Source: an uncultured Clostridia bacterium (GTDB taxonomy: Bacteria > Bacillota > Clostridia > Christensenellales > Borkfalkiaceae). Taken from it: a DNA stretch of 64,000 nt. The notes below the pieces were generated by a model. It was not told the DNA's origin and searched no databases. It saw nothing but the letters and a program-made list of their open reading frames with translations. The stretch is from assembly GCA_944368155.1 (NCBI GenBank), contig CALVWW010000001.1, positions 62,001 to 126,000 on the forward strand, in the 5' to 3' direction. The position numbers were made by a program, and so were the translations under genes. The first letter of the stretch is position 1; each line of letters begins with the position of its first letter. Positions 837-61,677 of this stretch are shown here, piece by piece.

Positions 837-1038
837 GTATGTCACGCGGCTGGGTGATACCTTCGACGAGCTTGCGCTGCAGGTTTACAATGACGAAAAG
901 ATGGCGTCATACATAATCGCGGAAAATCCTGATTATGCGGATGTGCTTATATTCGAAGATACCGTTACTCTGCGCATTCCGATTTATAATAACAGCAGCG
1001 AGCCGGCAACACTTGCCCCTTGGAGGCGAAGTTCATGA
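814..1038 (+). CDS. LysM-like phage tail protein (gpX/XkdP-type)
   Basis: A 74-residue protein. The core (RLGDTFDELALQVYND then AENPDYADVLIFEDTVTLRIP) has the LysM pattern: GDTxxxLA, a run ending in NP, and a final hydrophobic strand ending in IP. Small LysM proteins between the tape measure and gpD genes bind near the tail hub or baseplate of contractile tails. The start ATG at 814 follows the purine-rich site GAGGAGGG (about 801-808). The gene overlaps the tape measure upstream, and its end overlaps the next gene's start by 4 bp. The function is inferred from domain and synteny; no catalytic role is visible. Confidence 0.75.
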   Translation: MTVLRYIEYVTRLGDTFDELALQVYNDEKMASYIIAENPDYADVLIFEDTVTLRIPIYNNSSEPATLAPWRRSS

Positions 1039-1955
1039 ACGTGTTCTATGAAGGTACCGATATAACTAAAGATGTCTATATAAATCGTTGTGAGCATGAG
1101 ACCTTTGCGGAAAAGCGGGCCGACAGGCTCATGATACGGTTTGTCGACAGCAAAAAAATGTGGGACTCATGGGGGCCGCGCAGCGGTGACAGGTTGCGCT
1201 TTGTAAACGGCGCGGCAGACACCGGCACAATGTATGTAACGGACGTGAGGCCGTCAAACGGCGCAATGACATTTTTTGCAACTGCGCTGCCCCCTTCTTG
1301 TAATACTAAAAAAAGCCGCGTCTGGGAGAATTTCAGCCTGATTCAAATTGCCGAGGATATAGCCTCCCAGCATGGATTGCAATTTGCGAGTTACGATGTC
1401 ACCGACTACAAATATTCATACATACAGCAGGTATGTCAAACCGACTTTGATTTTTTGCAAAGTCGCTGTCTGCTTGAGGGCTGTGCAATGACGGTATACA
1501 ACGGCATACTCATTCTGTATGATGAGCAGGCAAGAGAGCAAGAGGCGGCCGTAACTACTTTCAAAATCGGAGATGACGGAGTGTATGAATATTCCGACAG
1601 GTCGTCGCAGGCGTACAGTTCCGCCGAAATAGTTTCCGGCAAGTATATCGGCACATACTATGCCCGGGATGTTGAGACGGGGCTTGTACTCAGACCTATG
1701 CGCGAGATTGCCTGTGCAAGCAATGCCGAGGCTATTCGCTTTGCACGGGGAATACTCCGTGACGCTAATAAAATGCAGTATTGCGGGGCATTCAGGCGCG
1801 GGATAACGTGCGATTATGCCGCAGCAAGCATTATTAATATCGAGACGTCAAAGGCGGCTTCGTGGAACGGCAAAGTTTTTATCACGCGGCTGCGCACAGA
1901 CCATGTCCGCGGAGAGACCAAAGTGTTTTTCCGTAAACCTTTGGAGGGTTACTGA
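1035..1955 (+). CDS. Phage late control gene D-like tail hub protein
   Basis: About 306 residues from the ATG at 1035, which sits 8 nt after GGAGG (1022-1026); the upstream TTG at 1020 would overlap that ribosome site and is less likely. The protein has the layout of gpD-like hub proteins: an N-terminal beta-rich half, the segment WENFSLIQIAEDIASQHGL, and a middle QVCQTDFDFLQSRCLLEGCAM, resembling the (Q)xxETDxxFLxRLxxExG motif of the gpD/VgrG hub fold. It should form the hub at the tail tip that carries the spike. It is in operon with flanking tail genes. Confidence 0.8.
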   Translation: MNVFYEGTDITKDVYINRCEHETFAEKRADRLMIRFVDSKKMWDSWGPRSGDRLRFVNGAADTGTMYVTDVRPSNGAMTFFATALPPSCNTKKSRVWENFSLIQIAEDIASQHGLQFASYDVTDYKYSYIQQVCQTDFDFLQSRCLLEGCAMTVYNGILILYDEQAREQEAAVTTFKIGDDGVYEYSDRSSQAYSSAEIVSGKYIGTYYARDVETGLVLRPMREIACASNAEAIRFARGILRDANKMQYCGAFRRGITCDYAAASIINIETSKAASWNGKVFITRLRTDHVRGETKVFFRKPLEGY

Positions 1956-2191
1956 TGAACGTGCAGAAGGGAGAGATAAGCACTATAGAAACAACGCGCG
2001 ACAAAAACGGCGATCCCAATTATGCGCGCGTTATTTCCGACACGGCCGATAGAACAATCTCAAAGCCGCTTGTTATACCTTCGGCGCTGAGAAAAGGTGC
2101 GTTGAAGAAGGGAACTGAAGTAATTTATGTTGAATTTGCCGACCATTCAGGCGCCATTTTGATGCGCGCGGACGGGGAGGTAAGCTCATAA
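1955..2191 (+). CDS. Small phage baseplate-region protein, unknown role
   Basis: A 78-residue protein whose ATG overlaps the gpD-like stop codon (TGATG), a coupled arrangement. It is mostly beta-strand in character (GDPNYARVISDTADRTISKPLVI, KGTEVIYVEFADHSGAILMRADGE; described piecewise), with no cysteines or membrane segment. Its place between the gpD-like hub and the baseplate W gene is where many contractile phages encode the spike or gpV. At 78 residues it would be an unusually short OB-fold spike protein, so this is only a suggestion. No confident family assignment. Confidence 0.6.
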   Translation: MNVQKGEISTIETTRDKNGDPNYARVISDTADRTISKPLVIPSALRKGALKKGTEVIYVEFADHSGAILMRADGEVSS

Positions 2192-2200
2192 GGAGGCGGC

Positions 2201-2737
2201 ATGTCTAAGATAGCAACGTTTACAACGGAGCTCGGAACAAAGACGTGGGAAGTTACTTCCAAAAAAATCAATGATTTTACCGACTTTTCAACCAGTTTTG
2301 AAGTTGAGGCAGAGGAAAATTCTTCCGTAGAGGGCTCACCGCTTACTAATGAACGCGGCTTAAAAAAGCAGCCGGTATCATTTTCTTCAACATTAATTGC
2401 CCAGCTTGGCGTAGACGTCAGGGCAGAGATTGACGGATGGAAGCCTTGGGTTGGACAGACAGGCGTTCTTAAAATCGGCGGCGAAGTATTCGGCCCCAAT
2501 TTCATGTTGAAGTCGGTTAAAGTCAGCAATATGGTAATCGATACGAAAGGCCGTTTTCATATGGCAAAACTCGCATTTTCATTTGAAGAGAATGATGAAG
2601 AGGTAGTCGGCAGTATTGTGGCGACTGTGAGCGATAATAACGAGGTACAGTCGTCGGCGGCCAATGTCACTTGCTCTACAGCTCAAAAAGCAAAACTTAA
2701 GGCTAAAAATTTTGCCATCCAGAGATTGATACATTGA
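2201..2737 (+). CDS. Phage structural protein of unknown function
   Basis: 178 residues; ATG 2201 follows AAGGAGG at about 2190-2196. The protein is soluble and beta-rich (TTELGTKTWEVTSKK, FSSTLIAQLGVDVRAEID). It resembles small structural proteins found between gpD and gpW genes in clostridial contractile-tail prophages. The sequence near the end (AQKAKLKAKNFAIQRLI) is basic. I do not recognise a named family. It is surely part of the tail operon: the spacing to the neighbours is 9 bp and 11 bp, and the strand is the same. Confidence 0.6.
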   Translation: MSKIATFTTELGTKTWEVTSKKINDFTDFSTSFEVEAEENSSVEGSPLTNERGLKKQPVSFSSTLIAQLGVDVRAEIDGWKPWVGQTGVLKIGGEVFGPNFMLKSVKVSNMVIDTKGRFHMAKLAFSFEENDEEVVGSIVATVSDNNEVQSSAANVTCSTAQKAKLKAKNFAIQRLIH

Positions 2738-2748
2738 GGAGAACAGCA

Positions 2749-3024
2749 GTGAAGAGTTTCGGGAACGGAAAACCCGCAGTTTGTGCGGATAATTTAACAA
2801 AGATATCGCGCGGCGAAGTTCCGTACGACCGTATCCGAGGGGTAAAGTTTTCTGAGTTGATTGGCGACGGAATAATGAAGAGTTCTGACCTCGCCGATGA
2901 TATAAGCTGGATGGTCGGAACATATGAGCCGCGCGTTTCGGTTGAGAGCGTGGAAGTGACTGCAGAAGATGCCGCAAACGGCAGACTCAACGTTGCTTTA
3001 AGGCTTAAAGGAGAAGGTGAATGA
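2749..3024 (+). CDS. Baseplate W (gp25/LysW-like) phage protein
   Basis: About 91 residues if the GTG at 2749 is used. That start lies 8-9 nt after GAGGAG (2735-2740), whereas the ATG at 2734 would overlap both the ribosome site and the stop codon of the preceding gene. The segment DLADDISWMVGTYEPRVSVE resembles the conserved end of gp25-like proteins, where a wedge helix is followed by EPRV. The family builds the baseplate wedge and sits directly before gpJ, as here: the stop overlaps the gpJ-like ATG by 4 bp. Family call from motif plus synteny. Confidence 0.75.
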   Translation: MKSFGNGKPAVCADNLTKISRGEVPYDRIRGVKFSELIGDGIMKSSDLADDISWMVGTYEPRVSVESVEVTAEDAANGRLNVALRLKGEGE

Positions 3025-4364
3025 ACGATTTTATTGTGACCGATGCGTCTGAAATATACAATCAGATAATTACTTCGCTGGAGAAGTCAACGGGTGAAGC
3101 GCTCTATCCGGGCGACGAGCGCCGAATTTTTGGCGAGGCGCTGGTTGCGGTATTTGTCGCTATGTTCAATCAGATGAACGATGCAGCAAAGCAGAAAATG
3201 CTGCAGTACGCGCGCGGTGAAGTATTGGACGCACTGGGCGAGCGCGCCGGTATTGAAAGAAAGCAGGCTCAGCCGGCGGTAACGGTTTTGCGTTTTTCCG
3301 TCTCCGAGCCGTTCGACGAAAATATCGTTATACCTCAGGGAACGCGCGCAACATGCGACAGCGTCAGGTATTTTGAAACGATGGCTGCGGTAGTAATAGC
3401 GGCCGGAGAGCTGAGCGTAGACGTTCAGGCGCGGAGCATAGGCGAGGGCACCGGATATAACGATATTTCGGCCGGACAAATCAATATGATAGTTGACCCG
3501 ATACCTTATGTGGATGCCGTTACAAATTGTGTTGCCTCATCAGGCGGCACAGATACAGAGGTTGACGATGATTTGCGCGAACGAATTCGTCTGGCGCCTT
3601 CCGCACTTTCAACCGCAGGGCCGATTAAATCATATGAGTATTGGGCAAAGACGGCAGATCCGTCCATAATGGACGTGATTGTGGCAAGCGAACAGGAGAC
3701 TTTAACTCGAACGCTTTCAGTATCGGGCGGTAAAGCCTTTAAAGGCGGCGCGGCTCTGATTGCCGAAACGCTCATAGTGTATTTGTCCGACGGAATAACA
3801 GCGGCAAAAAACGGGACAGACTATACGGCTACCTATGCAGACGACCTGCTGACAATCTCGCTGCTTCAGGGCGGCGCGCTGGCAAGTGCGTCAACTGTAA
3901 AAATAAGTATAGATACCACAAACGCAGGCGTAGTGAAAATTGTCCCCATACTGGACGGAGGGGCAATTCCCGACGATGATATGCTTAAAAAGATTTATGA
4001 CGTAGTAAGTGCCGACAATGTGCGCCCCATGACCGACGTCGTCAAGGTGGAAGCGCCCGATGTGGAGGAGTACGATATTGAAATTAAATATTACACTACG
4101 GCTGCGGACGAGAGTGCCTGCACCGAGACCATTGAGGGTGCCGGCGGAGCCATAGACAGATATATCGAATGGCAGAGCGGTGCTATCGGCCGCGATATCA
4201 ATCCCGACAAGTTGCGCTCATTTGTGCTTGCTCCGAACTGGGAAAATGCAGTCGGCGCCTATCGTATCGACGTCATAAAGCCTGCTTTTAAAGTGCTGAA
4301 CGCAACGACGATAGCGCAATTTTCCGGGAATCGCACGATAAGTCACGAGGTGGTTGAAGAATGA
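3021..4364 (+). CDS. Baseplate J-like protein (gpJ/gp47 family)
   Basis: 447 residues. Visible family features include RGEVLDALGERAGIER near residue 70, the VIPQGTRATCDS beta-turn, the region GEGTGYNDISAGQIN and the conserved DDDLRERIRLAP around residue 180. The family forms the outer baseplate wedge of contractile tails. The length is in the usual range. The start overlaps the W-like stop and the stop overlaps the gpI-like ATG, so W, J and I are translationally coupled. No truncation or frameshift is seen. Confidence 0.9.
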   Translation: MNDFIVTDASEIYNQIITSLEKSTGEALYPGDERRIFGEALVAVFVAMFNQMNDAAKQKMLQYARGEVLDALGERAGIERKQAQPAVTVLRFSVSEPFDENIVIPQGTRATCDSVRYFETMAAVVIAAGELSVDVQARSIGEGTGYNDISAGQINMIVDPIPYVDAVTNCVASSGGTDTEVDDDLRERIRLAPSALSTAGPIKSYEYWAKTADPSIMDVIVASEQETLTRTLSVSGGKAFKGGAALIAETLIVYLSDGITAAKNGTDYTATYADDLLTISLLQGGALASASTVKISIDTTNAGVVKIVPILDGGAIPDDDMLKKIYDVVSADNVRPMTDVVKVEAPDVEEYDIEIKYYTTAADESACTETIEGAGGAIDRYIEWQSGAIGRDINPDKLRSFVLAPNWENAVGAYRIDVIKPAFKVLNATTIAQFSGNRTISHEVVEE

Positions 4365-22346: not shown

Positions 22347-22353
22347 TTCGACA
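22347..22353 (-). promoter_or_regulatory. 0A-box-like site upstream of spo0A
   Basis: TTCGACA here is the complement of the consensus Spo0A binding site TGTCGAA. It lies 61 bp before the -35 element of spo0A, so autoregulation is possible. A 7-mer is expected several times by chance in a window of this size, so the site alone is weak evidence. Confidence 0.35.
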
Positions 22354-22413
22354 TATTAATTTAAAATAATATAAAATTTGTAAATTAAAATAATGAATAT
22401 TTTACAAAAATAC

Positions 22414-22442
22414 TTTACAAACAGCAAGCGCCGTAGTATAAT
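22414..22442 (+). promoter_or_regulatory. Promoter of spo0A
   Basis: TTTACA (22414-22419), 17 bp and TATAAT (22437-22442): near-consensus sigma-A promoter. Transcription should begin near 22449, inside the 5' arm of the hairpin listed next. Confidence 0.75.
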
Positions 22443-22486: not shown

Positions 22487-23257
22487 ATGAATACGGCAAA
22501 TATTGTTATACTTGAAAGCAGCAAAGAGTTCTTGGAAGAACTCAAAGACTACTTCGACGGTAAGGAGCAGTTCAATGTATGCGCGGTAACAGGCAGCGGG
22601 ACTAAGGGGATTGAGTACATAAATCATTATAAACCTAACATAGTTATTCTCAATCTTGTTTTGTCGGGGTGCGACGGAGTGAGCGTTCTTGACCATATTA
22701 AAAACAATTGTCCCGATTGCAAGGCTATTGTTGTGTCGAATTTCTCTGACGAGAGCGTTATTAACTCTGCGATAGAGCACGGAGCAAAGTATTATTTTGT
22801 GAAGCCGGTGGAACCTCACAGCGTTGCCGACAGGATTTCAGATATTCTTAATGACCATGCGGTTGAATACAGGGTATCTGATGTCGAACGCACAAGGCGA
22901 AGAGCGGCCTCGCTTGACGAAAAGATAAGCAAAATCTTTATTTCTATAGGCATACCTCCGCATATAAAGGGCTATGCATACCTGCGTGAGGGCGTAAAAA
23001 TGACTGTTGAAAACAACAGTGTCATAAACGAAGTGACTAAAGAACTTTACCCCAGCATAGGCAAAAAGTTCAATACGACGGCAAGCAAGGTGGAGCGCGC
23101 CATTCGTCATGCAATAGAAGTGGCTTGGAACAGGGGCAGAATAGAGGCTATAAACTCAATTTTTGGTGCAAGGGTTTATATAGGTAGTGAGCGTCCCACA
23201 AACAGTGAATTCATCGCTCTTGTAGCTGACAAACTGATACTTGAGGAGTTATTGTAG
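22487..23257 (+). CDS. spo0A: Spo0A-like sporulation master regulator with a degenerate receiver
   Basis: 256 residues. The DNA-binding half (about 140-256) is very close to Spo0A: IGIPPHIKGYAYLREGV, YPSIGKKFNTTASKVERAIR and GRIEAINSIFG. In the receiver (1-125) the residues aligning with the B. subtilis acid pair Asp10/Asp11 are Glu10 and Ser11, and the phosphoryl-accepting Asp56 is Asn (codon AAT, 22652-22654). The switch Ser (SNFS) and Lys (FVKPVEP) remain. So it is unlikely to be activated by the usual phosphorelay. It has its own promoter and leader hairpin and stands alone, not beside spoIVB as usual. Start follows CGGAGG at a normal distance. Confidence 0.93.
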   Translation: MNTANIVILESSKEFLEELKDYFDGKEQFNVCAVTGSGTKGIEYINHYKPNIVILNLVLSGCDGVSVLDHIKNNCPDCKAIVVSNFSDESVINSAIEHGAKYYFVKPVEPHSVADRISDILNDHAVEYRVSDVERTRRRAASLDEKISKIFISIGIPPHIKGYAYLREGVKMTVENNSVINEVTKELYPSIGKKFNTTASKVERAIRHAIEVAWNRGRIEAINSIFGARVYIGSERPTNSEFIALVADKLILEELL

Positions 23258-26950: not shown

Positions 26951-27035
26951 GCACTCATGGCGGAATTGGCAGACGCGCAAGACTAAGGATCTTGTGGAGC
27001 GATCCATGCAGGTTCAACTCCTGTTGAGTGCACCA
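26951..27035 (+). tRNA. tRNA-Leu (anticodon AAG)
   Basis: An 85-nt class II tRNA. The acceptor GCACTCA pairs with TGAGTGC, with discriminator A and encoded CCA. Anticodon stem CAAGA/TCTTG holds the loop CTAAGGA (anticodon AAG). The variable arm is TGGAGCGATCCA and the T arm CAGGTTCAACTCCTG. The mobile element begins directly behind it. A promoter-like TTGACT (26897) and TAGAAT (26923) lie upstream. Confidence 0.97.
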
Positions 27036-27533: not shown

Positions 27534-28562
27534 TTATTTGCTCCAACCGTTTCCAGACGATTTGAAAGGTGAAGAGCGCTTTACTGCCTTACGTTGCTCG
27601 GCAGTTGCCAATGCTTCCCTAAGTTTGTCCGGCGCTTGCTTTCGCAGCTCTCTCAAGGTGTTGGCGTCCTCTTGGAGCGACAGCCTCTCTCGCTCGGTCT
27701 TTTGATAGAGCTGAAATACGTCGTGCTGGTCTTTAATGCTGTATTCAAGCTCTTTTCTGAGCCGTGCGTTGTCAGCGGCAAGTGCAGGTACGTCTTTCTT
27801 GTTCGGCTTACGTTTTCCTGCGTTGTATTCCTGTGCAACGTCCGCTGCGGCTTGGAGAGGAGCAACTTCGCGTTGTAATTGCTCACGCTTTTCTTCAAGC
27901 TCAAGCATGGCCTGTTCCACGTGGGCTTGGCTTTGCTCTGCGGCTTCTTTTCGTCTTTCTGCCTCGGATGCCTGCAATACGGCGGCGACCGCATCTTCTT
28001 TCATCTTTTTGACTTTGTACGACATAGTGTCGAGGTGCTTGGCACTGCTGCCTTCCTTGCCGCGTTGCAAGTTCCATTTCTTACCTACCACAGAATGAAA
28101 GTCTGTCTGTAATTCTTGCAATGCCTTGCGGTCAAACAGTTGCTTGGCGCAGAGTCTGCCGTCTGCAATCGGGATTAAATTCAGGTGCAGGTGCGGCGTG
28201 GTTTCGTCCATGTGGACTACGGCGGAAATAATATTCTCTTCACCGTATCTGTCCGCAAAGAAGCGGGTGCAGTCTGCAAAGAATTTTTCCTGTTCTCGTT
28301 CTGAAAGACTTTTGAAAAACTCTCTGTCCGAACCCACGACAAAGGAACACATAAGAACTGCGTCCTTGCGTACTTTCGTAGGTAAGTCAAGTTCCGCTAT
28401 TCTTTTGTTGATGTGCTGAGTGTAAGAGCATTGCCGCTTAATGACATTGTAGTTGTTCAGAGTGCGAGTGCAGTCTATCTGCGGATTGTTGGCAGGATAG
28501 CTCTCATCTCGCTCGTTCTCCTGTTCGACGGGCGCAATGTCCGTCTTGTGATATTTTTCCAT
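27534..28562 (-). CDS. MobV family relaxase (Pre/Mob)
   Basis: 342 residues from the first ATG (28562). The N-terminal catalytic domain has the MobV order: NERDESYPANNPQIDCTRT, the region EENIISAVVHMDETTPHLHL with its HxDExTPHxH metal/active-site motif, NLIPIADGR and then a long coiled coil (about 180-320). It nicks oriT and pilots the strand into a recipient using a helper conjugation system. In the same frame the conserved start ISYLVCHMEKYHKTD extends seven codons upstream to an ATA (28583-28581), which lies exactly 8 nt after AAGGAGG (28598-28592); the real start is probably that AUA codon. Confidence 0.88.
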   Translation of the reverse strand: MEKYHKTDIAPVEQENERDESYPANNPQIDCTRTLNNYNVIKRQCSYTQHINKRIAELDLPTKVRKDAVLMCSFVVGSDREFFKSLSEREQEKFFADCTRFFADRYGEENIISAVVHMDETTPHLHLNLIPIADGRLCAKQLFDRKALQELQTDFHSVVGKKWNLQRGKEGSSAKHLDTMSYKVKKMKEDAVAAVLQASEAERRKEAAEQSQAHVEQAMLELEEKREQLQREVAPLQAAADVAQEYNAGKRKPNKKDVPALAADNARLRKELEYSIKDQHDVFQLYQKTERERLSLQEDANTLRELRKQAPDKLREALATAEQRKAVKRSSPFKSSGNGWSK

Positions 28563-28646
28563 GTGACAAACTAAGTAGCTTATTTAATTGTCCTCCTTGT
28601 TTTTTCTGATTAAAAGCCCTCGGCAGAGCGAACGGTACTTCGCTTG

Positions 28647-28670
28647 CGAAGTATAGTGAGCTATACTTCG
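28647..28670. other. oriT, pMV158/MobV type
   Basis: CGAAGTATAG, loop TGAG and CTATACTTCG form a 10-bp perfect stem. The core AAGTATAGTGAGCTATACTT differs at only two positions from the MobM nick region of plasmid pMV158 as I remember it (AAGTATAGTGTGTTATACTT). By analogy the nick would fall after TAGTGAG, between 28660 and 28661. A second hairpin (ACTTCGCTTGCGAAGT) overlaps it. The site lies about 65 bp upstream of the relaxase ribosome site. Confidence 0.75.
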
Positions 28671-28705
28671 AGCCGACGAAGTGGAAGAAGTATCTATAAA
28701 ACACT

Positions 28706-28909
28706 TCAAGTTTGCTTGTCAAAATCAGACTTTGGGTTGCCATATAATTTCCGTTTGCTTGCCTGTTTTATGGCGGTCTGATTGTCGTTTGCTTGTTCAT
28801 TTTTTATCTCCTGATTTGTTGATTTTTTATCTTTACCCACAAGCAAAATTGTGGGTGCGATAGCTAAAAAAGAACACAAAAAAGCCGCTGATGCTTGTAA
28901 CGCGATCAC
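28706..28909 (-). CDS. Possible small protein upstream of oriT
   Basis: 67 residues from a GTG: a hydrophobic N-terminal segment (ALQASAAFLCSFLAIAPTIL) followed by a hydrophilic, Lys/Asn/Gln-rich tail. It could be a small membrane protein, but no ribosome site is seen and its 5' part lies in the hairpin-rich region, so it may be spurious. Confidence 0.25.
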   Translation of the reverse strand: MIALQASAAFLCSFLAIAPTILLVGKDKKSTNQEIKNEQANDNQTAIKQASKRKLYGNPKSDFDKQT

Positions 28910-28988
28910 CGACTTAAAACCTTGTTTAGCTGTAAGCTCTATGGTGGTTAGCCATTCTATGTAATTTTCGGTTTATTTACTTTTGTTT

Positions 28989-29246
28989 TGCCTCGGTTAT
29001 CTAAAAATTTGTACACTAAAAAAGCCCATCAAGGCACGTCCAAAAATGCGAGATGTTTTAGGCTTAGTTGCTAAAAAATTGTTCAACAATAAAAGCCTAT
29101 CATCGCACATCTTTTCCGAACGAAGGCGATAACGACTTATTTTGAAAAACTGTAACACAAAATAAGCCTGTCTTCACTCGAAGAAAGTCAGCCACTTAAC
29201 GGGGTTTAAGTAAAAAAAATGTACGCTTACAAAACCCCATTATGGC
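28989..29246. repeat. Array of four covarying two-stem hairpins (68-72 bp period)
   Basis: Each unit has an outer short stem, an inner stem and an A-rich loop of the type TAAAAAATTGTNCA. Unit 2: TGCGA/TCGCA outside, AGGCTT/AAGCCT inside. Unit 3: GAAG/CTTC and CTTATTTTG/CAAAATAAG. Unit 4: GCCA/TGGC and GGGGTTT/AAACCCC. Unit 1 has TGCCT/AGGCA with a weak inner stem. A weaker, related unit starts near 28861. The stems differ in sequence but keep pairing, while the loops are conserved, which is the mark of selected secondary structure. Confidence 0.7.
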
Positions 29247-29247
29247 G

Positions 29248-29411
29248 CGTCTTTCAGACGGCTCGGGCGCAGCGCGTTTCGCGCTGAAAACCTTGCAGAG
29301 CAGTGCGCTCTGCGGCGCAGTCATATCTGCGCTAAACTCTCTCGTGAAAGAGGAGTACCTGTACTTGAATGTACAGCAAAAGAGCACAGGCAACATATCC
29401 GCCTGTACTCT
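29248..29411. repeat. Run of six consecutive perfect hairpins
   Basis: In order: CGTC/GACG; AGCGCG/CGCGCT; GCAGAGC/GCTCTGC; GCGCAG/CTGCGC; CTGTAC/GTACAG; and AGAG-ACAGGC/GCCTGT-CTCT (29381-29411, one mismatch). They follow the covarying array without gaps and contain no credible gene. 29412-29560 holds no gene either, but includes AAACATATGTTT at 29452-29463. Confidence 0.65.
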
Positions 29412-29451
29412 CGCATTATATCATAATCATTTCGTTTTGTCAAGAGAATAT

Positions 29452-29463
29452 AAACATATGTTT
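29452..29463. promoter_or_regulatory. LexA-box-like palindrome in the mobile element
   Basis: AAACATATGTTT is a perfect palindrome and close to the Bacillus-type SOS box (GAACATATGTTC core). It lies in the non-coding region between the hairpins and the cargo operon. It might be a LexA site; no gene start is close to it on either strand. Confidence 0.35.
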
Positions 29464-29562
29464 GTATTATTCCATAACATAATCTATTATGCAAATATTT
29501 TTTGCTTTGAATAGTGACGATTATTCAAGTAAGCGTAATTACACTATACTGCAATACAGACT

Positions 29563-30450
29563 TTACTTCTTTTTTGCAGACTGCTTTATCTGAGAGTGGT
29601 AGAAGTAATTAATAATAATTGGCTTGCCAGTTGGATTACGAAGAAATGGCTCTTCGTCGATAACATACATAAAACCATTCGTCTCGGCGTATTCCGTCAC
29701 TTTTCTGTCTAAAATCCGCCAATATGTCATGTCGTTTTTATTATAAATCTGCTGATAGAGCGGCAGTAAGTCGGTATATTTTTTGTCTATATATTCCATT
29801 ATCTGAGTTTTGAAGTTGCCGCGCAGATTAAGGTTTTCCAGCCAGATATAGTCGCAGAAGTCCTTTATTTGCTCGATTATTTCAAACACTTGCGTTATTC
29901 CCGGAAAGATGGGAGATATAAAGCAGGTTGTGCGTATACCCTCTTCGTGGCACTTTTTCATAGCCGCAATTCTGCGCTCAATCGAAACGGCTCTATCCAT
30001 ATCGTTTTTGAAGTTTTCGTCGAGCGTGTTTATTGACCAGCTTATGAGTGGAGAAGGGAAGGTCTTTATGAGGTCGAGGTCACGCAATACAAGGTCTGAC
30101 TTTGTCGTGATTATAAGGTTTATTCCGCTGCCCTGCATTTCTTCCAGAAAGGCGCGCGTCCGGCAGAATATTTCCTCCTGAGGGTTGTATCCGTCCGTTA
30201 CAGAACCTACGATCATCGTTTGTCCAGTATATTTTTGAGGATTTTTTATCCTGTCCCACTGTTTTACGTCGAGAAATGTTCCCCACGGTTCGTCGTGTCC
30301 CGTGAACCTTTTCATAAAGCAGGCATAGCAATATTTGCAGGCGTGTGTACAGCCGACATAGGGATTAACCGAATACCCCGCGATGGGGAGGTTGGATTTT
30401 GTAAGCACTGTTTTTACTTTTATATACGTAATTTTAATGTCGTCCATCAT
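29563..30450 (-). CDS. Radical SAM protein, SPL/Rv2578c-like
   Basis: 295 residues. The radical SAM cluster motif is CTHACKYCYA (CxxxCxxC, residues about 33-42), followed by the family segments FLDVKQWDRIKNP, IVGSVTDGYNPQE, ITTKSDLVLRDLDLI, SWSINTLDE and RRIAAMKKCHEEGI. Together these match the group annotated as spore photoproduct lyase-like. The substrate is unknown. Last gene of a four-gene overlapping operon with MarR, a second radical SAM protein and a flavin protein; it overlaps marR by 4 bp. Cargo of the mobilizable element. Confidence 0.85.
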   Translation of the reverse strand: MMDDIKITYIKVKTVLTKSNLPIAGYSVNPYVGCTHACKYCYACFMKRFTGHDEPWGTFLDVKQWDRIKNPQKYTGQTMIVGSVTDGYNPQEEIFCRTRAFLEEMQGSGINLIITTKSDLVLRDLDLIKTFPSPLISWSINTLDENFKNDMDRAVSIERRIAAMKKCHEEGIRTTCFISPIFPGITQVFEIIEQIKDFCDYIWLENLNLRGNFKTQIMEYIDKKYTDLLPLYQQIYNKNDMTYWRILDRKVTEYAETNGFMYVIDEEPFLRNPTGKPIIINYFYHSQIKQSAKKK

Positions 30451-30878
30451 TTGTCTCCCAGATTTGCAAGTATTCTCTTTAAGTAATTTTCAAACTGCTC
30501 AACTTCGCTGTCGGTAAAGCCTTTATAATAAATGTCCTCTATCTCGCGCGTGACTGCATCGTATTCCTCTTTGAGCGCGGCGGCCTTCTCTGTAAGCGAT
30601 ATGCAAACACTGCGCTTATCCGTTAAGCTTTCCTCCATGGCAATCAGTCCCTGCTCGTCCATTCGCGTCAGCATGGCGGAGAGGGTAGTCTTGGCAAGCC
30701 CGCTCTTTTTAGAAATTTCGGTCGCAGTCATTTTGCCGTTCTGCCATAAAACATAGAGTATTTTGCCCTGCGCGCCGTTGAATGCGTCGATATTCTTCTC
30801 TTGAAGTATCTTATCAAACTTACGTCCGCCTATATTTTTTATTTTGGAAATTAAAAATCCGCCTTGCCTTGCGTTCAT
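30447..30878 (-). CDS. MarR family transcriptional regulator
   Basis: 143 residues with a winged helix: ILYVLWQNGKMTATEISKKSGLAKTTLSAMLTRMDEQGLI (described in parts, residues about 30-75), the wing region EESLTDKRSVCISLTEKA, then a dimer helix. The family senses small ligands or oxidants and represses its own operon. Start and end overlap the flanking genes by 4 bp. The likely operator is the repeated ATAGTAYTAT in the operon promoter (32084-32115). Confidence 0.88.
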   Translation of the reverse strand: MNARQGGFLISKIKNIGGRKFDKILQEKNIDAFNGAQGKILYVLWQNGKMTATEISKKSGLAKTTLSAMLTRMDEQGLIAMEESLTDKRSVCISLTEKAAALKEEYDAVTREIEDIYYKGFTDSEVEQFENYLKRILANLGDK

Positions 30879-31540
30879 AGATTAAACTCCTTGGGAAATT
30901 TCTGTATCATCTGACTTTCGGGAATAATTCCAGCGAAAAATAAATCCTCCTTCATAAAAACGGGTATATTGTTTGCCAGCGCTTGCGAAACAAGTCCATT
31001 AATCCACGACTTTTGAGAAGGTGTCTTGCCCTTGCAGTTGCCCGTTTCGGTGCCCAGTACCACCCACTCAATTCCCGTAAAATCCACTTCGCCAACTTCA
31101 TCGGAGAGCGGCTCGAACGTGGCGTGATAGTGCTTTGCCCTGACATTGCTCTTTAAAATTTCTATGCGATTTTTTTCCGCAGCGCAGGTGACAGTCACGC
31201 CGAACCACAGGTTATCAAGGTCGGTCTGAATGTGCAATCGTTCGGGACGTTTTGTCAGAAACAGATAGGTATTTTTAGGCGTGGCCGCAGCCTTTTCAAA
31301 AACTTTTTCCGTCCAGTCGGGTTGCCAGTAGGCAAGGTCGCTCATGCCTGTAAGCAGAAAGATCTTCGGCTCTTTGCTGTCAAAGAGCCGAAGTTTGCTT
31401 TCAAAAAACTCGGGCTTATTAAAGTCGTCTGTGATATGAAATCTGCGGCAATTATTTCTTGCGTAGCAGTATCTGCACCCTATCGGGCATCCGATGACGA
31501 TGTTTAAATTTTTTATTTTGTCCTTTATGCAGGTTATCAT
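30875..31540 (-). CDS. Radical SAM protein, DUF5131 (phage Gp37/Gp68) family
   Basis: About 222 residues from the ATG at 31540 (MITCIKDKIKNLNIVIGCP), which overlaps the stop of the upstream gene (TGATATG). The cluster motif is CPIGCRYCYA. Other family parts: FLLTGMSDLAYWQPDW, FLTKRPERLHI, NLWFGVTV, TFEPLSDEV and WVVLGTETGNCKGKTP. The group is known from phages and mobile elements; its reaction is unknown to me. It overlaps marR by 4 bp. Confidence 0.82.
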   Translation of the reverse strand: MITCIKDKIKNLNIVIGCPIGCRYCYARNNCRRFHITDDFNKPEFFESKLRLFDSKEPKIFLLTGMSDLAYWQPDWTEKVFEKAAATPKNTYLFLTKRPERLHIQTDLDNLWFGVTVTCAAEKNRIEILKSNVRAKHYHATFEPLSDEVGEVDFTGIEWVVLGTETGNCKGKTPSQKSWINGLVSQALANNIPVFMKEDLFFAGIIPESQMIQKFPKEFNL

Positions 31541-31541
31541 A

Positions 31542-32045
31542 TCACTTTTTCTGCGCGGGAGCAAGCTCTGCGTATCCATTCCAACCGAAAACCGCCTCGA
31601 CGCTATCGTCTGCATATACTGTTGTTACGTCGCATATGTGCAGGATATGGTCGTCGGCGTCAACGGTCGAGTTGACCTTTGCAACTATGGCAAGGCGCGT
31701 TAATTCGGGGACACAAATTTCTGTTCCGTCAAGCTTCTGCATTGCAATATTGAATTTCTCAACCTTGTCGGTGTCTCTTCCGGAAGAGGTGCCGCAGGCA
31801 ATCAGTGCTCCTGCAAGTTCCGCGCCGGGAACGGCGATAACGACTTCATTGTTCTTTGCAAGCAGTTCAAGAGTGTACGCGCCCTTATTTAACGAGAATA
31901 CAACCTTTCCGGGGTTGGTTGAGGCATATGTCCAAAATGAAAGCGTTGCCATATTTGTCTTTCCGTCTGCCTTTTTGGAGCAGATAAAAGTCATGGGATT
32001 TGGCGAGGTATAAACGGGGGTCTGTGCAATTTTAATTTGGTTCAT
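31542..32045 (-). CDS. Flavin reductase-like (FMN split-barrel) protein
   Basis: 167 residues. The pattern TPNPMTFICSKKADGKTN (in the form SPNPMTFICSK), TLSFWTYASTNPGKVVFSL, EVVIAVPGAELAGALIACG and GRDTDKVEKFNIAM is the layout of the flavoredoxin/flavin reductase split barrel that binds FMN. It is first in the operon and would supply or use electrons for the two radical SAM enzymes, which is inference. ATG follows AAGGAG at a good distance; a consensus promoter with MarR-type repeats lies upstream. Confidence 0.82.
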   Translation of the reverse strand: MNQIKIAQTPVYTSPNPMTFICSKKADGKTNMATLSFWTYASTNPGKVVFSLNKGAYTLELLAKNNEVVIAVPGAELAGALIACGTSSGRDTDKVEKFNIAMQKLDGTEICVPELTRLAIVAKVNSTVDADDHILHICDVTTVYADDSVEAVFGWNGYAELAPAQKK

Positions 32046-32083
32046 AATAATCTCCTTAAATTAATTAAGTTCCATATGGTACT

Positions 32084-32115
32084 AATATAATACTATATAG
32101 TACTATTTATGTCAA
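32084..32115 (-). promoter_or_regulatory. Promoter and probable MarR operator of the cargo operon
   Basis: On the minus strand TTGACA (32115-32110), 17 bp and TATTAT (32092-32087). The spacer and -10 contain two direct copies of ATAGTAYTAT (ATAGTACTAT and ATAGTATTAT), followed by TTAGTACCA. Such overlap with the core promoter is how MarR repressors work; the operon encodes a MarR protein. Confidence 0.75.
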
Positions 32116-32189
32116 GCAAAATTTTCATTCTTAAAGGCTATAAGATAGAGGCATGGTGAAAATTGTGGGAATATACTGTAAAATTCAAA

Positions 32190-32218
32190 TTGACAATAAT
32201 GCATTTTTTATGTAAAAT
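32190..32218 (+). promoter_or_regulatory. Promoter of the XRE regulator/recombinase pair
   Basis: TTGACA (32190-32195), 17 bp and TAAAAT (32213-32218), 29 bp before the ATG of the regulator gene. Confidence 0.75.
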
Positions 32219-32246
32219 ATAAGCATAACACAAAAGGGAACTACCG

Positions 32247-32609
32247 ATGAAAGAATCTGGCATTGTGGCTGAAAGATTAAAGGCTCTGCGTGAAAGCGTT
32301 AAATTATCTCAGGCAAAATTAGCGGTAAAACTTGAACTAGAACAGACGGCGATCTTTCGTTATGAAAGTAAGACCTCATTTCCTCCTTATTCCGCATTGA
32401 TTCGATACGCCGATTATTTTGATGTGTCGCTCGACTACATTTTCGGACGTACGGACAAGCCGCAGGGCAAGCTGTACGACTATAACCCCAAAGCTTTCGA
32501 TGACGAGAAGATGCAGCAGTTTGTGGAGATGTGTTTTGACCCCAAATCTCCTGCCAATGCCAAACTTAAAGAAGCTGTGCTTAAACTCTTACGGGAGGAA
32601 CAGAAATAA
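32247..32609 (+). CDS. XRE family HTH regulator
   Basis: 120 residues. Residues about 8-65 form the helix-turn-helix: RLKALRESVKLSQAKLAVKL, EQTAIFRYESKTSFPP and ALIRYADYFDVSLDYIFGR. The remaining part (KPQGKLYDYNPKAF to the end) is soluble and helical. Phage- and element-borne regulators of this type control excision genes. Its stop codon overlaps the first base of the recombinase ATG (TAATG), so the two are coupled. It probably controls the recombinase and its own promoter. Confidence 0.85.
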   Translation: MKESGIVAERLKALRESVKLSQAKLAVKLELEQTAIFRYESKTSFPPYSALIRYADYFDVSLDYIFGRTDKPQGKLYDYNPKAFDDEKMQQFVEMCFDPKSPANAKLKEAVLKLLREEQK

Positions 32610-34108
32610 TGAGAGCCGTAATTTATGCCCGCTATTCGAGCGACAATCAGACCGAAGCGTCGATAGAAGGTCAGATACGAGAATGTATGGAGTATGCGAC
32701 CTATAACGATATTCAGGTTATCGGCAACTACATCGACCGTGCGTTCTCGGCAAAGACAGACCACCGCCCCGAATTTCAACGAATGATAAAGGACAGCTAT
32801 AAGCATGCCTTTGATTGTATTATCGTCTGGAAGCTGGACAGGTTTTCCCGTAACCGCTACGATAGCGCGCACTATAAAGCGTTGTTGCGCAAAAATGGAG
32901 TAAAGGTCATCTCTGCAAAGGAGACAATTGCCGAAGGCTCCGAGGGTATACTGCTGGAAAGCGTTCTGGAAGGCATGGCAGAATACTATTCAGCCGAACT
33001 TGCTGAAAAGGTAACGCGCGGTATGAAGGAAAACGCCTTAAAAGGTTTGTGGAATGGCGGCAACGTTCCGTTCGGCTATGTTATAAATAATGAGCGCAAG
33101 CTCGATATTGATCCGCAAGCCGCGCCCGTCATTCAGGAAATTTTTAAGTTGTGCAATGACGGAAAGACGGTGAAAGAGATCTATCGCATAATGAACGAGC
33201 GCAAAGTAACTCGCTCGAACGGCAAGGCATTGAGATACAATGCAATCCGATATATGCTTTCTAACAGAGTATATATCGGAGAGTATCACCACATGGGAGT
33301 AGTTATAGAGAACAGTGTGCCGCAGCTCATTTCGGAAGAGCTGTTCGATGCCGTGCAGTTGGAACTTGCCAAGAATTCAAAGGCACCGGCAAGACATACA
33401 GCAGATGAGGATTATCTGCTTACCACAAAACTTTTCTGTGGGAGATGCGGCGCAATGATGGTTGCGCAGGCAGGAACAAGCGGTACAAAAGGCGTTGTCT
33501 ATCGCTATTATGCCTGTGTGCGGCAGAAGAAGCACCAATGCGAAAAGAAGCCTGTCAGCAAGACCAAGCTGGAAGATTTCATTGTCTATAAGACTATGGA
33601 ATTCCTAAAAGACGACGACATTATTGAAAGGCTTTCGGCAAAGCTGTACGAGTTGCAGTACACAGAGAGTACTATTCTCCCGAAGTTGCAGGAGCAGTTG
33701 AAACAAAAGGAAAAAGAGATAGAAAATATCGTCAATGCCGTGCAGAAGGGCTACGCAACGGAAACGCTATTGAAACGACTTGACGGGCTGGAGAAGCAGA
33801 AGCGTGAGATAAGCGATGTGATTGCCAAAGAACAGCTTAAATCTCCGATTTTCTCGCAAGACCATTTCAAAATGGCACTATCCAACTTCCGCAAGATAGA
33901 CATAACCACGCAGGAAGGCAAGCGCAAGATAATAGATACTTTTATCAATGCAATTTACCTTTATGACGACCACTTAAAAATTATATACAACGCCAACGGT
34001 AAGGAAGAAACAATAAGCCTTGCGGAACTCGAAAGTTCAACTTTGTTTTCACGCGGGGCACCAAAACGGCGGCGGAAACATTGTTTCCGCCGCCGTTTTG
34101 TTATATAA
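32609..34108 (+). CDS. Large serine recombinase (site-specific integrase)
   Basis: 499 residues. The N-terminal resolvase domain has YARYSSDNQTEASIEGQIREC with the nucleophilic Ser in RYSS (residues about 8-11) and WKLDRFSRNRYD. Next come the recombinase domain (NGGNVPFGYVINNERKLDID, RVYIGEYHHMGV) and the zinc ribbon (FCGRCGAMM ... YYACVRQKKHQCEKK), then a coiled coil (about 350-410). It should integrate and excise the element. The last 15 or so codons lie in an 18-bp perfect hairpin that begins right after the proposed border, so the C-terminus may be encoded by flanking DNA. Confidence 0.92.
   Translation: MRAVIYARYSSDNQTEASIEGQIRECMEYATYNDIQVIGNYIDRAFSAKTDHRPEFQRMIKDSYKHAFDCIIVWKLDRFSRNRYDSAHYKALLRKNGVKVISAKETIAEGSEGILLESVLEGMAEYYSAELAEKVTRGMKENALKGLWNGGNVPFGYVINNERKLDIDPQAAPVIQEIFKLCNDGKTVKEIYRIMNERKVTRSNGKALRYNAIRYMLSNRVYIGEYHHMGVVIENSVPQLISEELFDAVQLELAKNSKAPARHTADEDYLLTTKLFCGRCGAMMVAQAGTSGTKGVVYRYYACVRQKKHQCEKKPVSKTKLEDFIVYKTMEFLKDDDIIERLSAKLYELQYTESTILPKLQEQLKQKEKEIENIVNAVQKGYATETLLKRLDGLEKQKREISDVIAKEQLKSPIFSQDHFKMALSNFRKIDITTQEGKRKIIDTFINAIYLYDDHLKIIYNANGKEETISLAELESSTLFSRGAPKRRRKHCFRRRFVI
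34062..34103 (+). terminator. 18-bp perfect hairpin overlapping the recombinase end
   Basis: The arm CAAAACGGCGGCGGAAAC (34062-34079), loop ATT and its complement (34083-34100) form a very stable stem followed by TTAT. It starts directly after GGCACCA, the proposed element border. It could be the former terminator of the tRNA-Leu(AAG) gene displaced by the insertion. Confidence 0.75.
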
Positions 34109-53684: not shown

Positions 53685-54698
53685 TTATTTAGCCGCGAGC
53701 ATATTTTCAATAGAAATTCCAAACCCGCGCGTCGGGTCGTTTATAAACACATGAGTTACCGCGCCTATCAGTTTACCGTTCTGCACTATCGGGCTGCCGC
53801 TCATTCCCTGTACTATACCGCCGGTTTTGTTTATGAGGTCTTTGTCGTCAATCCTTATAACAAAATTGCGGTTATCTTTGTTATCCTTTTCTATTTTTAT
53901 TATTGAAATTTCGTAGCATTCCCTTTTATTTGAAGCAACTGTAGAATAAATCTCCGCTTTACCTGGCGTCACATTGTCAATATCTCCCGCTTCGATTTTA
54001 GTAAGGCCGGCGCAATCATAATTTTTATCTAAGTTGCCGTATATCCCGCATGCGGAATTCAAAGTTGCCGAACCAATAGTTTTACTGTTCTGAAATGCAC
54101 CCTTTAGTTCTCCCGGTGTACCGCGCACGCCGCGTTTTACATCGTAGATTATGCATCCGTATAGCGTTCCGCCGTTAATTTTTGTTACATTACCCGAAGT
54201 ATCTGTGACAGGATGACCGAGAGACGCAAATGAATTATCTGTTTTGTTGATATATGTCACTGTCCCTACTCCGCTCAGACTGTCGCGTACCAGCACGCCG
54301 ACTTTCATTGCGCCGCTTGACATGTCCTTAGCCGGCGTTATTGTAAGCTCCAACTCTTCCCCGTCGCGAATTATTGTCATTTTTGCGCTTTTTGAATTTT
54401 CCAGCAGCTGGGTAACATTTTCACTTGAAGTTACCTCTCTGCCGTTGATACTCTTTATAACATCACCTGTTTTCAGTCCTGCGTTCCTCGCCGGGGATAC
54501 AAGGCCGTCCTCCGTCAAAACATCGCACATGCCTACTACTTCTACAGTAGTTGTATCCAGCACAAAACCAGCGGGAAAACCTCCTAAATATAACTCATCG
54601 GGTTTAACGGGTGCGGCACCGGTAAGCGCAAATATGCAGCACACTGCGGCAATTATTATAATTAACAGCTTTTTTAATGAAGTTCTTTTGCTCGCCAT
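53685..54698 (-). CDS. spoIVB: SpoIVB peptidase (sporulation signal protease)
   Basis: About 337 residues from the ATG at 54698 (MASKRTSLKKLLIIIIAAV); a TTG at 54734 is less likely. Order: N-terminal membrane anchor, PDZ domain (GLVSPARNAGLKTGDVIKSING, residues about 75-115), then the S55 serine protease with SLGHPVTD (His) and GGIVQGMSGSPIVQNGK (Ser). In the intermembrane space of the forespore it cleaves SpoIVFA and so triggers sigma-K. The gene follows recN as in most spore formers, but spo0A is not the next gene; here spo0A is 30 kb away. Confidence 0.94.
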   Translation of the reverse strand: MASKRTSLKKLLIIIIAAVCCIFALTGAAPVKPDELYLGGFPAGFVLDTTTVEVVGMCDVLTEDGLVSPARNAGLKTGDVIKSINGREVTSSENVTQLLENSKSAKMTIIRDGEELELTITPAKDMSSGAMKVGVLVRDSLSGVGTVTYINKTDNSFASLGHPVTDTSGNVTKINGGTLYGCIIYDVKRGVRGTPGELKGAFQNSKTIGSATLNSACGIYGNLDKNYDCAGLTKIEAGDIDNVTPGKAEIYSTVASNKRECYEISIIKIEKDNKDNRNFVIRIDDKDLINKTGGIVQGMSGSPIVQNGKLIGAVTHVFINDPTRGFGISIENMLAAK

Positions 54699-54815
54699 AA
54701 AAATATTTTGCGCCGCTTTTGCGGATATATACAAAAAACTTTAAACATTGTCCGGTGGTTTTGCCGGCAAAATTTAAAGCGTCGCAAAATTGCGGCGCCC
54801 GTTTAAACAGGTGAT

Positions 54816-56492
54816 TTAATTATACTGAGCAATAAGCTCTGAGGCGTGTTTCCTGGCTGCTTCGGTACTCCCTCCTCCTGTCAGCCGTATTATTTCGTCA
54901 ACTTTTGCTTCGCCCCGGATTTCGCTTACAGTTGTTGTAGTGGTTCCTGCGTGCTCGACTTTTTTTATTAGGAAATTTTTGGCGCCCGCCGCACAAATCT
55001 GCGGCAGGTGCGAAACAGCTATAATCTGAGTGTGTTTTGAAATAGCGACAAATTTTTCTGCTACGCTTTTTGCAGTTACACCGCTTATGCCGGCATCGAT
55101 TTCGTCAAATATATAGGTCGAAATGCCGTTGAGGTCTTTAAGACATGCCTTGACTGAAAGCATAAAACGGCTGAGTTCACCGCCGCTTATAACTTTGTTA
55201 AGCGGCTTAAGGGGTTCGCCTGCATTAGCAGAAAACATGAAATGTACCTTGTCGCAACCGTTTGCACTGTTTAGTCCTGCTGTTCCGCGGTTATATTCTT
55301 CGAAATATACTTCAAATTTAGCGGCAGGCATATTCAAATCTGTAAGTTCGCTTTCCACTGCTTTGCAGAATTTCCCTGCGCCTGCTTTCCTGATTGCGGA
55401 AAGTGCGACACATCCTTCAAAAATTTTATCGTCGAGTTCAAAGAGGCGACTTGTCAGTTTTTCTGCTGCTTCCTCGCTGTCGGAGAGCAATTCAAATTCG
55501 TTCCCCGCCCTGTTTCTGAACTCTATAATTTCCTCTATGGTAGAGCCGTATTTCTTTTTTAGGCTTCTGATAAGGTCTAACCGCTCTTCTACTCTGCGTG
55601 CCTCGGCTTCGTCGAAATCCAATTCGTCAGCCATATCAGCAAGAGTGTCTGAAAGGTCCTGTATTTCAGCTAAAGCAGCCTCAAGGCGTTCTTCAACGGC
55701 AGAATAAGCATCGTTTAAGTCGGATATTCCCGCCATAAGCCGTCTCGCGGCTGAAATGCTGTCGCCGCTGCCGCCGTCACCATTTAACGCAGACATCGAA
55801 CCTGCTATTGCTTCGGCAATTTTCTCGGTATTATCTATTATTTTTCGTTTTGCAAGCAGTTCTTCTTCCTCGCCCGCAACTAGTCCGGCCGCATCAATTT
55901 CCTTTATCTGATATGCAAGAAGGTCAATCCTCCTTGCTCTTTCGGCGCCGTCGCCTCCAAGCTGTTGAAGCTTTCTATTGCAATCACGCTTTTCGGCAAG
56001 CAGCGAGGTCAGAGCCGATTTTATTTCAGCAAGCTTATCCCCGCACAGACTGTCGATGACGGCAAGCTGGTTGCTTTCGTTAAGAAGGGCAAAATGCTCG
56101 CTTTGTCCGTAAACATCCACAAGGTGCTGTGAAACGCTTTTCAGCATAGCAGCCGTCACCGTATTGCCGTTAATTTTTATATTTCCTTTGCCGTCCGCGG
56201 TGTATTTTCTGGTAATTATTATTTCTCCGTCGCTGTCTATATCAAGTTCCGCAAGCGCCTTTGCGGCAGCGGAATCAGGCGCAACAGCAAATTCGCCACG
56301 GACAAAAGCTTCGCTTTCACCGTAGCGTATCATATTTTTATCGGCTTTGCTTCCGAGAACAAAGTTGAGCGAATCTAAAATAACCGATTTGCCTGCGCCC
56401 GTTTCGCCCGACAGAATATTCAAAGCGGGGCCGAATTCTATATTTGCGTTTTCAATCAGCGCAATGTTTTTTATGGCCAATCTTTCAAGCAT
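54816..56492 (-). CDS. recN: DNA repair protein RecN
   Basis: 558 residues, SMC-like. Walker A is LSGETGAGKSVILDSL (residues about 27-42), followed by a long coiled coil with the family segments IKEIDAAGLVAGEEEELLA and KKKYGSTIEEIIEF, and then the signature VISGGELSRFMLSVK with Walker B IYIFDEIDAGISG and the HLPQICAAG switch. It acts early at double-strand breaks. It begins 6 bp after argR; argR-recN-spoIVB is a typical Firmicutes order. Confidence 0.96.
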   Translation of the reverse strand: MLERLAIKNIALIENANIEFGPALNILSGETGAGKSVILDSLNFVLGSKADKNMIRYGESEAFVRGEFAVAPDSAAAKALAELDIDSDGEIIITRKYTADGKGNIKINGNTVTAAMLKSVSQHLVDVYGQSEHFALLNESNQLAVIDSLCGDKLAEIKSALTSLLAEKRDCNRKLQQLGGDGAERARRIDLLAYQIKEIDAAGLVAGEEEELLAKRKIIDNTEKIAEAIAGSMSALNGDGGSGDSISAARRLMAGISDLNDAYSAVEERLEAALAEIQDLSDTLADMADELDFDEAEARRVEERLDLIRSLKKKYGSTIEEIIEFRNRAGNEFELLSDSEEAAEKLTSRLFELDDKIFEGCVALSAIRKAGAGKFCKAVESELTDLNMPAAKFEVYFEEYNRGTAGLNSANGCDKVHFMFSANAGEPLKPLNKVISGGELSRFMLSVKACLKDLNGISTYIFDEIDAGISGVTAKSVAEKFVAISKHTQIIAVSHLPQICAAGAKNFLIKKVEHAGTTTTTVSEIRGEAKVDEIIRLTGGGSTEAARKHASELIAQYN

Positions 56493-61672: not shown

Positions 61673-61677
61673 TTAAT

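Follow-up and report, generated by a model that had tools for sequence, protein, structure and literature searches.

Spo0A proteins without the phosphorylation site: predicted pseudo-receivers in several families of Clostridia

Introduction

Canonical Spo0A is activated by phosphorylation of Asp56, with Mg held by Asp10 and Asp11; residue 11 is a direct Mg ligand. In passages of two reports, this phosphorylation is regarded as the gating step of sporulation, and gut bacteria are called spore-formers when they carry spo0A (PMC8340488, PMC11536998). For clostridia, part of the text of PMC11210211 attributes phosphorylation of Spo0A to orphan histidine kinases.

Receivers that have lost these residues are known from other regulators. 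According to sections of a 2025 review (PMC12632262), pseudo-receivers account for about 6% of the receivers in bacteria, and their mode of switching is largely unknown; about 80% of them have a non-acidic residue at the second position of the acidic pair, and the routes described include regulated synthesis of a constitutively active protein, intrinsic dimerisation and binding of a ligand. One aspartate-less example is RitR of Streptococcus pneumoniae (Glu9/Lys10/Asn53), for which passages of PMC4395418 describe changes of Lys10 and Asn53 that were without effect on function. Unusual sporulation programmes have also been reported. In Epulopiscium sp. type B, early sporulation genes are kept, as in the genome studied here, and known clostridial Spo0A kinases were not found there either; unlike in the genome studied here, however, the phosphoacceptor residues of its Spo0A are conserved and SASPs are kept (passages of PMC3416734).

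The accessible main text of the 2025 review does not mention Spo0A, and in the accessible part of PMC4395418 the name occurs twice, one passage being on the activity of an engineered Asp-to-Glu form. A full-text search of the open-licence literature returned no recognisable report of a natural Spo0A without the acceptor aspartate. Pseudo-receivers as such are already known; what is new is their presence on Spo0A across families. Here, we analyzed a 64,000-nucleotide stretch of DNA (hereafter the window) from an uncultured Clostridia bacterium, whose assembly contains 1.73 Mb in 31 contigs and is 94.9% complete, together with spo0A loci of its relatives.

Results and Discussion

Domain structure and switch residues of the window's Spo0A

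The following features were assigned to the spo0A gene of the window:

22487..23257, forward strand: spo0A, 256 aa, comprising a predicted pseudo-receiver, a linker and the Spo0A_C DNA-binding domain (TIGR02875, Pfam)
22499..22846, forward strand: receiver domain, residues 5-120, fold intact in the model, switch residues lost (AF2 model, 1qmp_B match)
22514..22519, forward strand: codons 10-11, GAA AGC, Glu-Ser replacing Asp-Asp (codons read, alignment to solved receivers)
22652..22654, forward strand: codon 56, AAT, Asn replacing the phosphoryl-accepting Asp (codons read, alignments)
22802..22810, forward strand: Lys106-Pro-Val108, with the conserved Lys kept and Val at K+2, where canonical Spo0A mostly has Phe
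22907..23248, forward strand: Spo0A_C DNA-binding domain, residues 141-254, recognition helix SKVERAIRHAIEVAW intact (identity to 1fc3/1lq1, dN/dS)

The open reading frame matched the Spo0A profile TIGR02875 over its full length (244 bits, cut-off 200), and Pfam assigned Response_reg to residues 6-117 (62.9 bits) and Spo0A_C to residues 147-250 (134.8 bits). The Spo0A_C domain showed ~59% identity to 1fc3/1lq1 and its predicted fold matched the same structures, in agreement with a preliminary description of this DNA, in which the DNA-binding half was said to be intact. In an AlphaFold2 model (mean pLDDT 85, pTM 0.50), the receiver stretch had pLDDT values of ~90 or above, and the predicted receiver aligned with 1qmp_B, a structure of the phosphorylated Spo0A receiver, with TM 0.91 (by target length) and rmsd 1.3. 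The structure alignment included 59 of 85 sequences; the window stood for locus L001, and one of the rows (L126) is a canonical Spo0A of a different family.

Asn56 and the Glu10/Ser11 pair, both noted previously, were confirmed by a HMMER alignment to solved Spo0A receivers, in which Asn56 aligned with the acceptor Asp of 1dz3/1qmp, 9phz and 5wq0 and the pocket stretch LESS aligned with ADDN. Lys106, Tyr103 and Ser84 (at the Thr84 position) were present. A phosphorylatable receiver has Asp56 and an acidic pocket, and the window's Spo0A, with N56/E10/S11, has neither; a domain that is matched by Response_reg and has lost acidic residue 11 and Asp56 fits the definition of pseudo-receivers, or aspartate-less receivers, given in parts of PMC12632262 and PMC4395418. 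Judged from its residues, the domain is a pseudo-receiver that keeps the fold and is predicted to bind no Mg via residue 11 and to accept no phosphoryl group at position 56. The loss of pocket and acceptor thus argues for the previous suggestion that this Spo0A cannot be activated in the normal way.

Compared to canonical Spo0A of B. subtilis and C. difficile, the domain order, the DNA-binding domain, the 0A boxes, the company of sporulation genes and membership in the TIGR02875 equivalog are shared, whereas Asp56 and acidic residue 11 are missing and no orphan HisKA kinase was found in the genome. The protein is therefore Spo0A by descent and domain make-up, and apparently not by phosphorylation mechanism. 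With RitR, it shares the acceptor Asn, Glu at the first acidic position, loss of the second acidic residue and the fold; RitR has Asp at the Thr position, while Ser84, Tyr103 and Lys106 are kept in the window's Spo0A (PMC4395418, passages on the RitR pocket). The likeness is limited to the pocket: the output domain of RitR is absent and the output is Spo0A_C.

Pocket loss and Asn56 within the genus

Among 61 genomes of the genus, 50 contained an orthologue of full or near-full length. Two incomplete sequences (L024, L073) were dropped, leaving 48 with at most nine gap columns. In this alignment of homologues, a check proposed in the preliminary description, Asn56 occurred in 19 sequences (codons AAC in 11 and AAT in 8) and Asp56 in 29, and position 11 was Ser, Asn, Arg, Gly or Thr and acidic in none of the 48; Lys106 and Tyr103 were present in all. 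A sequencing or single-strain error is ruled out as the origin of Asn56 by its presence in 19 genus members and by the use of both Asn codons. Since position 11 is never acidic and position 56 is mixed, loss of the acidic pocket appears to be older and wider than Asn56. On the tree, Asn56 and Asp56 alternate inside the genus and the pocket is broken throughout, so that the 29 Asp56 members keep the acceptor beside a broken pocket. The simplest history consistent with these residues would be that the Mg pocket was lost first and residue 56 was altered later. The emphasis previously placed on Asn56 is justified in that the residue is real, but the change to Asn56 occurred repeatedly, and in a pocket that was already broken throughout the genus.

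Median dN/dS values, which are rough with dS near saturation, in the Asn56 set were 0.153 over 34 usable pairs in the receiver and 0.047 over 46 pairs in the DNA-binding domain; the Asp56 set gave 0.242 and 0.068, respectively. These estimates indicate that the receiver of the genus Spo0A is under purifying selection and that the DNA-binding half is nearly invariant. In addition, retention of Asp56 in 29 of the 48 sequences suggests that some constraint on this residue may remain.

It could be argued that Asn56 is deamidated to Asp and then phosphorylated, or that the Asp56 members are weakly phosphorylated. A passage of PMC4395418 mentions that an Asn in a receiver reverted to Asp, and Asp56 is indeed the more frequent residue in the genus; however, the non-acidic residue 11 in 48/48 sequences would still impair phosphotransfer chemistry, and the window genome yielded no orphan HisKA kinase, which makes this explanation highly improbable.

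We also observed that Asn85 was present in all 19 Asn56 sequences and in 5 of the 29 Asp56 sequences. A compensating contact or common ancestry are possible reasons for this association.

Histidine kinases and a second Spo0A_C protein

Four HisKA kinases were detected in the window genome (C1:230456, C4:40291, C5:39339 and C19:10337), each beside a regulator on the same strand (C1:231747, C4:41241, C5:40316 and C19:8906, respectively) at a distance of no more than ~1.1 kb from domain to domain. A fifth regulator (C13) is of LuxR type and adjoins a gene that was read by eye as a DesK-like kinase. The genome encodes seven receivers, including Spo0A and a second Spo0A_C protein, and all seven are located in frames of at least 223 aa, so that a Spo0F-like protein was not found. 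Spo0F and orphan kinases had been named in the preliminary description as candidates to look for; our search of HisKA-class kinases and receivers in the 94.9% complete genome revealed neither an orphan HisKA kinase nor a Spo0F-like receiver. HisKA matches were also absent from all four genomes of family f28 and from genome G027 of family f10, yet the receiver of f28 genus g69 is canonical, implying no tight link between loss of kinases and loss of the receiver.

A second, normal Spo0A elsewhere in the genome had been considered previously. A second Spo0A_C protein with an Asp-bearing receiver does exist (L002; G000, C1, ~330 kb), but it is not a normal Spo0A: its TIGR02875 score is 97.6 bits against the cut-off of 200 (Spo0A_C, 74.2 bits), its recognition helix is changed (SVERAMQNAINRAW) and 11 of 19 genus genomes lack the type. 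These 11 genomes have the pseudo-receiver Spo0A without a second match, and two others have only the second protein; the L002 type therefore cannot be a general replacement of Spo0A.

Nevertheless, the phosphorylation input might have moved to the L002-type protein, possibly in a heterodimer in which Spo0A provides DNA recognition and its partner the phosphate switch. In 18 aligned genus paralogues, the pocket is mostly EDD with the acceptor Asp (exceptions include L077 and L086), which together with the changed helix fits such a division of labor, as does the finding that the two genes are convergent neighbors in G036 and that in the window genome no HisKA kinase lies next to either regulator. 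However, this model leaves the 11 genomes with a pseudo-receiver Spo0A alone, and the two with the second protein alone, unexplained; moreover, the acceptor Asp is lost in the paralogues of G002 and G044, and an exact 0A box is missing from 17 of 18 upstream stretches, some of which are short or have unsure starts. We consider such a transfer quite unlikely, although the L002-type protein may add a phosphate input where it is present.

Promoter and 0A box of spo0A

Two elements were identified upstream of the gene:

22347..22353, forward strand: 0A box TTCGACA (reverse of TGTCGAA), 140 bp upstream of the start codon (exact match)
22414..22442, forward strand: sigma-A-type promoter TTTACA-17 bp-TATAAT (pattern count, alignment of 26 upstream regions)

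An exact 0A box in either orientation was found within 350 bp upstream of spo0A in 100 of 141 regions, compared to 5.2 expected from mononucleotide shuffles; most boxes had one orientation and were located ~75 to 145 bp upstream of the start. In a second count, restricted to 220 bp and with the expectation derived from dinucleotide shuffles, boxes were present in 32/49 regions of the genus (1.8 expected), 28/41 of canonical relatives (0.93 expected), 8/16 of other pseudo-receiver families (0.3 expected) and 19/26 of GTDB relatives (0.53 expected), a group (f1_gtdb) that contains all GTDB loci, without family codes, in both box and promoter counts. The high occurrence in canonical and non-canonical groups shows that the 0A box is kept irrespective of the state of the receiver. 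A near-consensus sigma-A promoter, in contrast, was present in 30/49 genus regions (0.83 expected) and in 5/5 regions of sister genus g15, and in only 2/41 canonical and 4/26 GTDB relatives. Sigma-H-type promoter patterns before spo0A were at approximately chance level in all groups.

Conservation of the sigma-A promoter, although correlational, is the main support for control of Spo0A by amount. This option, one of several raised in the preliminary description, is now the better-supported alternative given the conserved promoter and 0A box; the leader hairpin (CTGTCA/TGACAG) that had been proposed as its control element was absent as a conserved feature from the genus alignment.

Based on these data, we suggest that in the orthologous Spo0A the receiver would have turned into a pseudo-receiver with its fold kept, while the DNA-binding half would still read 0A boxes; the gene is still kept together with a sporulation gene set. 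Spo0A would then be constitutively competent or otherwise gated. Its gene would be transcribed from the near-consensus vegetative sigma-A promoter, and the protein may feed back on its own gene via the upstream 0A box and probably bind other boxes as well. Absence of phosphorylation, activity without phosphate and control by amount are what we infer from the sequences, and we find it fairly likely that the window's Spo0A works in this way, with an activity that depends on how much of it is made and/or on a partner or ligand of the pseudo-receiver and not on kinases. The uncultured gut bacteria with such a site-less Spo0A, a large group, probably control the sporulation programme some other way.

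A second conserved element, approximately ATTTTACAA, was observed just before the -35 box (window ~22397-22405) in the majority of the 26 genus members aligned.

Sporulation genes and the possibility of decay

A set of 52 selected genomes was searched for sporulation, kinase and SASP families. One of the sporulation genes lies in the window:

53685..54734, reverse strand: spoIVB, beside recN and 30 kb from spo0A (TIGR02860, 308.1 bits, cut-off 305.25)

Of the genes checked as marks of endospore formers, the window genome contains the sigF operon, spoIIE, spoIIID and spoIVB, has SpoIVA only as a C-terminal part and lacks SASP. The order spoIIAA-spoIIAB-sigF could be read by eye in this genome (L196) and in relatives, including members of f24, f28, f19, f10 and f11. 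In the window's family, SpoIVA was matched in 18/18 genomes (15 over the cut-off), SpoIIID in 18/18 (three by partial hits) and SpoIIE in 17/18 (none over the curated cut-off), and alpha/beta SASP in 0/18. Genomes G028 and G139, which have no Spo0A at the threshold, also lack SpoIVA and SpoIIID. SASP was found in 7 of the 52 genomes. One of these, G191, has a Spo0A with Glu56 and Gly11 and is likely a full sporulator with a non-canonical receiver. SASP was not found in the tested genomes of f3, f6, f16, f18 and f32, whose receivers are canonical except in f6 genus g6; thus, absence of SASP does not track the receiver.

An exact 0A box is located at -55 before spoIIE of the window genome. Such boxes preceded spoIIE in 6/40 genomes compared to 1.66 expected, a weak excess, and spoIIA had no exact box upstream in the window genome, nor in most relatives. 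Control of sporulation genes by Spo0A is therefore weakly supported outside the spo0A promoter.

Absence of alpha/beta SASP together with the shortened SpoIVA suggests that the sporulation programme of the window genome may be decaying. If selection were relaxed in a lineage that is losing both sporulation and Spo0A, the receiver would decay first and the DNA-binding half would linger. Such a process would account for the lack of alpha/beta SASP in the 18 family genomes, for SpoIVA without its N-terminal part in G000, G002 and G016, for the small genomes and for the 11 of 61 genus genomes without a full-length orthologue (two with a fragment), to which incomplete assemblies contribute. However, it is difficult to reconcile with dN/dS of ~0.15 in the receiver and 0.05 in the DNA-binding domain, with invariant Lys106 and Tyr103, with the conserved 0A box and promoter and with retention of the sigF operon, spoIIE, spoIIID and spoIVB, and the five families named above lack SASP beside mostly canonical receivers. 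Relaxed selection thus appears unlikely.

In SpoIVA of the window species (G000:C2:186337-187200), G002 and G016, the frames are 381-400 aa long and the match begins at profile position 203; in the other genus members tested, SpoIVA is whole. As to gene order, spo0A follows spoIVB in Bacillus. In the window, recN and spoIVB are adjacent (53685-56492), and spo0A (22487) is 30 kb away on the other strand.

Distribution of altered receivers in other genera and families

Altered receivers were not limited to the genus. In the window's family, sister genus g15 has Glu10/Ser11/Ser56 in 5/5 sequences, and the single sequence of genus g14 has Gln10/Asp11/Glu56. Named GTDB records contributed 33 relatives, almost all of them uncultured Clostridia; where residue 56 was read, it was Glu, Gly, Ser, Trp or Asp, with Gly56 in the record of Candidatus Borkfalkia avistercoris (L114). 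Most other families of the window's order have a canonical receiver, whereas Glu56 occurs in f10 g10, f19, f28 g30 and f11 g84. At the class level, the majority of sequences are canonical, with the exception of f40, which has Asn56 and has lost Lys106 in 2/3 sequences, and f48 g106, which has Glu56 in two.

A quick tree of 189 rows, in which 65 of 186 inner branches are unsupported, implied at least 15 changes between Asp and non-Asp at position 56. Its rows comprised 24 chosen genus sequences, two more (L131, L132) and, from other families, the class level and GTDB, every row in which at least 190 columns were filled. By a stricter definition (acidic residues 10 and 11, Asp56, Thr/Ser84 and Lys106), 98 of the 189 rows were non-canonical, with at least 18 changes on the tree, a proportion that reflects sampling and not prevalence since the choice of rows favored the window's family.

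These patterns raise the tentative idea, which we regard as somewhat doubtful, that entry into a sporulation-type programme was uncoupled from histidine-kinase signaling several times in Clostridia, giving families with a never-phosphorylated Spo0A that decide by its amount, a new ligand or a partner. On this equally tentative reading, their receivers would range from Asn/Ser/Gly/Glu56 pseudo-receivers to the hardly recognizable domains of f24, and one genome has extra receiver-less Spo0A DNA-binding proteins. If entire families have a Spo0A that takes no phosphate, calling spore-formers by spo0A would be unsafe for them, and they would be natural examples of how a developmental master regulator can be freed from kinase input. 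The predicted pseudo-receiver belongs here to a regulator whose DNA sites are known and which can be compared with many canonical relatives.

Residue K+2 was Ala, Ile, Leu or Val in 63/98 pseudo-receivers compared to 25/91 canonical receivers. Val at this position was considered as an activating change and rejected, as only 5 independent pairs were available on supported branches and the tree gave no significance.

In family f24, which belongs to the window's order, N-terminal halves align poorly and DNA-binding halves are intact; in L141, L143 and L145, the N-terminal half is barely alignable to a receiver. Genome G192 of the window's family has, besides a full-length Ser56 Spo0A, two 130-aa proteins (L139 and L140) that contain only a DNA-binding domain of Spo0A, with 59% identity to that of the window, and each is preceded by a 0A box at -101.

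Other features of the window

Phage-tail-like genes, including a baseplate hub (Phage_GPD) and Baseplate_J, are present at window positions 1020-4364. A mobile segment (27534-34108) that follows tRNA-Leu (26951-27035) contains a Mob_Pre relaxase, radical SAM genes and a large serine recombinase. In addition, a full-length match (413 bits) to OLE RNA (Ornate Large Extremophilic RNA, RF01071) was detected at 61108-61676 on the reverse strand, between a polyprenyl synthetase gene and an unassigned 234-aa open reading frame (60358-61062) that adjoins dxs.
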